A stretch of 64,000 nt of DNA, from the NCBI RefSeq assembly GCF_019880245.1, contig NZ_CP082286.1:434001-498000 (forward strand). The letters run 5' to 3'. Positions within the stretch are counted from its first letter, which is position 1. Each line of letters starts with the position of its first letter. The notes beneath the pieces are model-generated. The model worked only from the letters and a program-made list of their open reading frames with translations, did not search any database and had not been told where the DNA came from. Position numbers and translations under genes: made by a program. Source of the DNA: Halobaculum roseum. GTDB taxonomy: Archaea; Halobacteriota; Halobacteria; Halobacteriales; Haloferacaceae. This document shows positions 3,939-38,022 of the stretch, piece after piece.

Positions 3939-4013
3939 GCTCGGTTGGTGTAGTCCGGCCAATCATGTTGGCCTTTCGAGCCGACGACCAGGGTTCAAAT
4001 CCCTGACCGAGCA
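3939..4013 (+). tRNA. tRNA-Glu (anticodon UUC)
   Basis: The acceptor pairs GCTCGGT with ACCGAGC, with discriminator A. The anticodon stem TTGGC/GCCGA holds loop CTTTCGA, giving anticodon TTC. The T arm is CAGGG-TTCAAAT-CCCTG. No intron and no encoded CCA. Its last 22 bases plus two flanking bases are repeated downstream at 4114-4137 (see the repeat entry). Confidence 0.97.
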
Positions 4014-4137
4014 CTACAGCGAGCGTCGAAGACGCGAGCGAAGCGCGCAGCGTCGGGATTTGAAGTAGACGGGACGCAGCGACCGAGCGGAGCGAGGTCG
4101 ACCGTCCCGGCGTGGTTCAAATCCCTGACCGAGCACT
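3992..4137 (+). repeat. 24-bp direct repeat of tRNA-Glu 3' end (att-like)
   Basis: Bases 3992-4015, from the T stem to two bases past the tRNA, are repeated exactly at 4114-4137. The copies enclose a 98-bp spacer, 4016-4113. The second copy lacks the rest of a tRNA, so it is a 3' tRNA fragment. Such fragments are the classic trace left by tyrosine-recombinase integration into tRNA genes (attL/attR). Here no integrase or cargo remains between them. The spacer holds GAGCGAAGCG and GAGCGGAGCGAG and can fold into a nested hairpin (4070-4109). It could equally be a small haloarchaeal tRNA-associated repeat. Confidence 0.8.
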
Positions 4138-35433: not shown

Positions 35434-35483
35434 GAGTGGGAGTCGGTGACTCGGTAGCGACCGAGTCGATGTGAGAACGGGAG

Positions 35484-35568
35484 TGCAGGGGGCAGGATTT
35501 GAACCTGCGAACCTCTACAGGACAGCGCCCTGAACGCTGCGCCGTTGGCCAGACTGGGCTACCCCTGC
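35484..35568 (-). tRNA. tRNA-Leu (anticodon CAG)
   Basis: Acceptor GCAGGGG/CCCCTGC with discriminator A. Anticodon stem CAGCG/CGCTG with loop TTCAGGG, giving CAG. Long variable arm with CCT-GTAG-AGG stem, as in class II leucine tRNAs. T arm GCAGG-TTCAAAT-CCTGC. No intron. It is embedded between rpoD and eL18 in the ribosomal operon, a conserved haloarchaeal position. Confidence 0.97.
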
Positions 35569-37919: not shown

Positions 37920-37938
37920 GTCTTGGGTGTGTGGTCAG

Positions 37939-38022
37939 CGTTGCGGCGGGGATTCGAACCCCGGAGGCTTGCGCCACTGAGTTAGCAACCCAGCGCCTTG
38001 GGCCAGGCTTGGCTACCGCAAC
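37939..38022 (-). tRNA. tRNA-Ser (anticodon GCU)
   Basis: Acceptor GTTGCGG/CCGCAAC with discriminator G. Anticodon stem CTGGG/CTCAG with loop TTGCTAA, giving GCT. Variable arm GGC-GCAA-GCC is identical to tRNA-Ser(UGA) at 874-955. T arm CGGGG-TTCGAAT-CCCCG. No intron. It leads the ribosomal operon and is probably cut from the same primary transcript. Confidence 0.97.

Follow-up and report, generated by a model that had tools for sequence, protein, structure and literature searches.

Gene-less hairpin cassettes at tRNA 3' ends of Halobacteria and their probable representative behind tRNA-Glu(TTC) of Halobaculum roseum

Introduction

The 3' ends of tRNA genes are classic docking sites of archaeal mobile DNA, and integron attC sites form arrays of units whose hairpin stems vary while the pairing and the flanking motifs stay. 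Archaeal tyrosine integrases of the SNJ2, SSV and pT26-2 types have att sites at which insertion occurs in the 3' part of a tRNA gene and a direct repeat leaves the tRNA whole (PMC8371274). SMR-A of Haloquadratum walsbyi is an element of about 110 bp with inverted repeats, no transposase gene and a preference for palindromes, whose mobilisation was described as "enigmatic"; it inserts into palindromes at the ends of PATE and IS605 elements, is more than 95% homogeneous internally and has been reported without target duplication (PMC3119063). REP palindromes are short extragenic sequences whose variable stem has GTAG at its foot and which RAYT (TnpA_REP) mobilises in trans, and the survey of REP and RAYT mentions no haloarchaea (PMC3733652).

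Here we report on a duplicated tRNA end of Halobaculum roseum and on the hairpin units, hereafter cassettes, to which we compared it. SMR-A is the nearest described element in size, absence of genes and palindrome targeting: like SMR-A, the cassettes are haloarchaeal and have a median period of 119 bp, no coding capacity and inverted arms (A'/A); unlike SMR-A, which we compared by its description only, they stand at tRNA T-arms, their ends copy the host tRNA and their cores belong to many families. With REP and BIME sequences they share cores that start with G(T/C)AG at the foot of a stem, but they always lie behind tRNA genes, with tRNA-derived arms and a conserved CGTGG on the other side. 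Mobilisation by RAYT was provisionally set aside because the Y1 transposase (PF01797), detected in six of eleven congeners including the host, is not consistently present in cassette carriers, being absent from four of ten cassette-bearing congeners (G002, G003, G008 and G009). Arrays of hairpin units with a variable paired stem and reassorting modules are analogous to integron attC arrays, although the cassettes contain no gene, their arms match the tRNA gene, not attI, and no attI was seen. Entry into the 3' part of the tRNA gene, with a tRNA-preserving direct repeat, is likewise common to the cassettes and the SNJ2, SSV and pT26-2 att sites, but the cassettes come without integrase or element body, start at T54 and hold an inverted T-arm copy and a hairpin. 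Precise empty sites are shared with integrase islands and their scars, from which the cassettes differ in that no integrase gene lies between or beside their repeats. The cassettes were filed under none of SMR-A, REP or integron attC. No description of these units was found in the open-access literature searched, and as far as found this gene-less family of roughly 120 bases is previously unreported.

Results

Structure of the duplicated tRNA-Glu(TTC) end

The window, that is, the whole stretch of 64,000 nucleotides that was analysed (positions 434,001 to 498,000 of contig NZ_CP082286.1), holds these features at the locus:

3939..4014, + strand: tRNA-Glu(TTC) gene, host of the cassette (ARAGORN; Rfam RF00005, 56.7 bits)
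3992..4015, + strand: proximal copy of the 24-bp direct repeat (exact sequence match)
4016..4054, + strand: hairpin 1 or linker (fold prediction; comparison with congener G005)
4055..4064, + strand: A', the inverted T-arm half GGGATTTGAA, left arm of hairpin 2 (follows the local tRNA over a set of 163 units)
4065..4115, + strand: palindromic core, GTAG-stem-CGTGG (pattern matches; covariation in sister classes)
4114..4137, + strand: distal copy of the direct repeat (sequence match; congener flank comparison)

The direct repeat GGTTCAAATCCCTGACCGAGCACT is exact over exactly 24 bp (3992-4015 = 4114-4137), with 98 bp separating its copies; the sequence-only reading had noticed this second tRNA-Glu end at 4114-4137, and both the sequence match and the tRNA call bear it out. 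The proximal copy spans the 3' half of the T-arm, the acceptor 3' strand, the discriminator and two more bases, and in the distal one the tRNA part TTCAAATCCCTGACCGAGCA (4116-4135) gives way to CTTCTCGC, the native flank of the tRNA. Midway between both copies of TTCAAATCCC, 51 nt from either, lies GGGATTTGAA (4055-4064), which as A' pairs with the right copy in a strong hairpin (4055-4125; DNA z -6.4). The region 4016-4137 folds as RNA with a z of -4.1, the smaller hairpin 1 standing directly 3' of the tRNA, and the core belongs to the 69-nt class, a count that includes the 9-bp arms. The interval had been judged too short for an integrase, and indeed it contains no gene, nor was any fitting ORF found in the cassette; it is not blank, however, but holds a hairpin, A' and the palindromic core. 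Three things had escaped the first reading: the inverted copy in the interval, the recurrence behind other tRNAs and the native flank after the right copy.

In an Rfam search of the cassette the tRNA itself was the sole match above the gathering score; lines for CRISPR-DR29 and mascRNA scored below the cut-off and were taken as chance, and a kink-turn or BHB splice motif was discarded because the hairpin, judged by eye, does not conform to either consensus. The three other tRNA genes of the window, Ser-TGA (873-956), Leu-CAG (35483-35568) and Ser-GCT (37938-38022), have no downstream cassette. Separately, an intergenic motif of the form GTGGGACTGAAAGGGGCCG...GAGCGAGCG...GGGGGCTTTC recurs in the host genome (G000:C1:2962491 and 2672651), away from tRNAs and without an Rfam match, and its middle looks like hairpin 1 of the window cassette.

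Recurrence behind other tRNA genes of the host

The last 20 bases of each of 41 tRNA genes examined in the host genome were sought downstream of the same gene. Such a copy of the own tail follows 18 of them (15 exact) and precedes none, against a mean of 0.09 expected with shuffled tRNA identities; the close congener G005 has one downstream of 17 of its 44 tRNA genes. A looser hairpin pattern, consisting of two 9-bp arms only, matched nine sites of the host genome and no control, and all nine lie behind different tRNA genes (Leu, Glu, Leu, Lys, Ser, Asp, Val, Gln and Gly). Units also occur as tandem arrays, with three downstream copies at Ser(GGA) and Arg(GCG) and two at Gly(TCC), Lys(CTT), Val(TAC), Tyr and Leu(TAA). 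Unusual T-loops are reproduced in the copies (TTCAACT in Lys(CTT), TTCGGAG in a Met tRNA), left motifs other than GYAG occur among the cassettes, and decayed units stand at Asp, Ser(CGA), Val(GAC), Thr(CGT) and several Arg tRNAs. When GYAGA...GCGTGG cores off tRNAs were sought with a loose pattern, 116 matches were obtained against 168 for the reversed control, those recognisable by eye as palindromic cores being all at tRNAs.

On a 240-kb replicon of the host (G000:C2:103386-105421), about nine tRNA genes whose ends are atypical lie densely clustered and carry no cassettes; a similar cluster, also cassette-free, is found on the main contig of G005 (G005:C1:722172-724011).

Empty, filled and decayed sites in congeners

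Comparison of the locus in related genomes, as the sequence-only reading had proposed, was carried out for tRNA-Glu(TTC) across ten congeners and uncovered empty, filled and decayed states. The site is empty in G002, G004 and G006, where the flank ACTTCT is that of the right copy in the window; thus ACTTCTCGC behind the right copy equals the native tRNA flank at the empty sites. G005 carries a near-identical core with a different hairpin 1, G008 a different core, and G001, G009 and G010 degraded remnants. An insertion of about 1.6 kb between tRNA-Glu and the aldolase gene in G007 is unrelated: it contains an ATPase-like ORF and lacks a second copy of the tRNA end. Among relatives the site may thus be empty, intact, decayed or occupied by a different core, which excludes the fixed structural repeat that had been named as the outcome refuting integration. 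The idea of an integration footprint divides accordingly: insertion as such is supported by the empty congener sites, but the footprint of an ordinary integrase is not, the structure being too uniform.

Other loci agree with this picture. The sites at Leu(GAG) and at a Met(CAT) tRNA are filled in the host and cleanly empty in G005, and the two genomes differ in arrays or modules at Tyr, Ser(GGA), Lys(CTT), Gly(TCC) and Arg(GCG). At Tyr, Ser(GGA) and Lys(CTT) hairpin 1 and core are combined differently in the two, as expected from recombination within A', and at Gly(TCC) the breakpoint falls within hairpin 1; the hairpin 1 region of the window cassette varies between close relatives while the core stays near-identical. 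The order within a unit is hairpin 1, A', a palindromic core from one of few families and a direct copy of the T54-to-discriminator part of the host tRNA. Insertion keeps the tRNA intact, the native flank standing after the last copy; units are gained and lost precisely and build tandem arrays, and recombination within A', within the tRNA-end copies and within hairpin 1 reshuffles the hairpin 1 and core modules.

Cores, arms and fold

Pairs of near-identical cores (1-3 differences) were more often behind different tRNAs (35 pairs) than behind the same one (13), and they also occur behind different tRNAs of different genera. No identical core was found behind two tRNA types among the 163 units and 29 isoacceptor types studied; hence direct recent transposition between tRNAs was not caught. 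The pair counts imply that cores are common to several tRNA genes and that arms are specific to the local tRNA. Compensatory changes keep the core stems paired: in the 61-nt class 98.2% of the cells pair and 27 cells have changed on both sides, the 54-nt class agrees with 10 such cells, and this covariation was reached by none of 500 shuffles, with the signal in the 61-nt class destroyed by sliding the partner. GTAG or GCAG stands beside the conserved stem in all 109 cores, GYAG being fixed by the search pattern, and the arms are coupled, the left Y matching the right R in 99 of 109.

A' follows the tRNA behind which it lies. Agreement with the host tRNA is seen at position 57 for 155 of the 163 units (93 when permuted), at position 63 for 123 (72), at position 64 for 93 (44) and at position 65 for 75 (49), and falls to chance at positions 66 and 67, where the acceptor stem starts. 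Where the 5' strand of the T-stem differs from the complement of the 3' strand, A' agrees with the complement in 32 cases, with the 5' strand in 19 and with neither in 16; with regard to a direct duplication of the whole T-arm (49-65) with an inserted core, which we set aside, these counts lean to pairing but are not decisive.

The apical loops are mostly of 3 nt, GNA being the commonest, and GCGNAGC is found in 51 of 109 cores. Haloarchaeal DNA in general contains many GC-rich GCGNAGC motifs, and this abundance weakens the argument for a DNA fold that can be drawn from them. In published work GCGAAGC is described as an extraordinarily stable DNA mini-hairpin (PMC4686876). The window hairpin is predicted to fold better as DNA on the tRNA-sense strand (z -6.4) than on its complement (z -4.0). 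Apical loops and strand asymmetry point to folded DNA, RNA being also compatible.

Distribution across Halobacteria

The strict hairpin pattern (9-bp arms, GYAG and GTGG) is present in 101 of 392 Halobacteria genomes and in 52 of 86 genera, with no control match, and was found in none of 132 genomes from other classes of the phylum. Among 84,980 bacterial and archaeal species scanned, at least 80 loci were recorded, and among the matches listed all informative titles are haloarchaeal. In named genomes, again among the matches listed, a tRNA gene lies just upstream of 81 of 83 hairpins, 27-73 nt away in 61 of these 81 cases, and all 30 class-level loci inspected likewise have a tRNA gene just upstream. 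The units studied number 163, behind 29 tRNA isoacceptor types, with a median period of about 119 bp. The suspicion of a recurrent haloarchaeal tRNA-linked repeat thus holds in a much stronger form, class-wide and with at least 29 isoacceptor types involved. Three or four identical hairpins follow each other in tandem at G048:C1:2656898-2657280, G142:C1:2016721-2016974 and G179:C1:2360174-2360425 (periods of 111, 102 and 97 bp), which from their sequences suggests recent array amplification. A viral origin was rejected, since the strict pattern is absent from 2.9 million viral contigs of IMG/VR. None of 113 hairpins checked, partly among the matches listed, was the end of a larger element.

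A genuine integrase island at tRNA-Gly(CCC)

The host genome also offers a true island for comparison, 3.4 kb inserted in tRNA-Gly(CCC) (G000:C1:1500239-1503797) and encoding a 436-aa tyrosine recombinase (PF00589). Its duplication is longer than those of the cassettes and starts at the anticodon loop, whereas the cassettes repeat from G52/T54; it carries no cassette-type hairpin of its own, and it sits between the tRNA and an older hairpin cassette that G005 possesses without the island. The different start of the duplication and the insertion before the older cassette indicate that cassette and island arise by different processes. An excision scar or a minimal att tandem of an ordinary island, both considered in the sequence-only reading, is disfavoured by this contrast and by the distribution of the units; taken together, hairpin uniformity, the contrast with the Gly(CCC) island and the variability among relatives argue against both an excision scar and a fixed repeat. 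A casposon-like staggered insertion that leaves a long target duplication was also considered and not retained.

Discussion

On balance, and with confidence somewhat better than even, we regard the feature of the window as one unit of a class-wide family of T-arm hairpin cassettes at tRNA 3' ends, which are ORF-less, non-autonomous and modular. New cassettes would enter the T-loop between positions 53 and 54 as folded single-stranded DNA, an intermediate whose A' arm may pair with the T-arm of the target, and catalysis would be provided in trans by a putative enzyme. The tRNA end would be regenerated on entry, after which the array would evolve by recombination; because of this regeneration, insertion at the tRNA end would be harmless, and the cassettes are probably selfish or neutral passengers. 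Gene conversion over the short homologies of the shared GGATTYGAA and TTCRAATCC arms may also carry cores from one existing cassette to another. Simple transposition does not explain that A' tracks the host tRNA, which requires copying of the target, later correction or selection. It is tempting, though decidedly more tentative, to speculate on a dedicated haloarchaeal system that inserts hairpins into T-arms via folded single-stranded DNA, the inverted arm being copied from or paired with the target, so that integron-like gene-less arrays would arise at up to half of the tRNA genes; this would be a new class of mobile element with a putative recombinase.

A function at the RNA level is compatible with the data, the sense strand being also the possible transcript, and the cassette may instead be a structured RNA in the pre-tRNA trailer, transcribed behind the tRNA and serving end sequestration, RNase Z processing or regulation; in one variant, hairpin 2 would hide the T-arm half of the second copy and leave the acceptor strand free, thereby preventing misfolding of the tRNA. 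The complementarity of A' covers exactly the T-arm from 54 to 65 and ends at the acceptor stem, a sensible boundary for a tRNA-like RNA, the stems covary and every unit lies in sense orientation behind its tRNA. We nevertheless consider this explanation unlikely, because occurrence at any given tRNA is sporadic, with orthologues empty or decayed and no tRNA type exclusively favoured, the apical loops are more often DNA-type triloops than RNA tetraloops and no Rfam family matches; moreover, several units are preceded by oligo-T, at which transcription may already stop (TTTT before 30 of 163 units against 3 of 771 control windows).

The A-hairpin-A'-core-A geometry could also be a pure product of replication or repair, in which fold-back template switching at the palindromic T-arm would generate A-A'-A zigzags and slippage would resize the arrays, no mobile element being needed. 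In keeping with such a process, the repeat sometimes runs into the flank (about 24 nt past the tRNA at Lys(CTT), similarly at a Met(CAT) tRNA), and the breakpoints of array changes fall in microhomology of A' and hairpin 1. A local process, however, cannot supply class-wide GYAG...CGTGG cores, nor near-identical ones across tRNAs and genera, and it would be expected in other archaeal classes too, where the pattern is absent among those sampled, all of which makes it quite improbable.

Lastly, scars of ordinary tRNA-integrating elements, with attL and attR arms remaining after loss of the body, would account for a tRNA 3'-end position with direct repeats, and integrase islands such as the PF00589 one at tRNA-Gly(CCC) do use these tRNAs, but we hold this very improbable given that the latter duplicates from the anticodon loop and not from T54 and entered between the tRNA and a pre-existing cassette seen also in the island-less G005, that dozens of independent deletions all leaving about 120 bp behind every kind of tRNA are implausible, and that the hairpin neither occurs in the viral contigs nor ends a larger element among the 113 hairpins checked, partly among the matches listed.

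Read as a family of T-arm hairpin cassettes, the finding concerns a recurrent unit at up to about 40% of the tRNA genes of a genome and in most genera of the class, which has apparently gone unnoticed. Such cassettes would account for many seemingly partial tRNA copies that are currently interpreted as att scars or pseudo-tRNAs, and they confound the prediction of islands from tRNA repeats. They offer a natural example of a DNA (or RNA) hairpin with ends that follow the host gene, and the family may give a second and far more widespread handle on the mobilisation of SMR elements, enigmatic since 2011.
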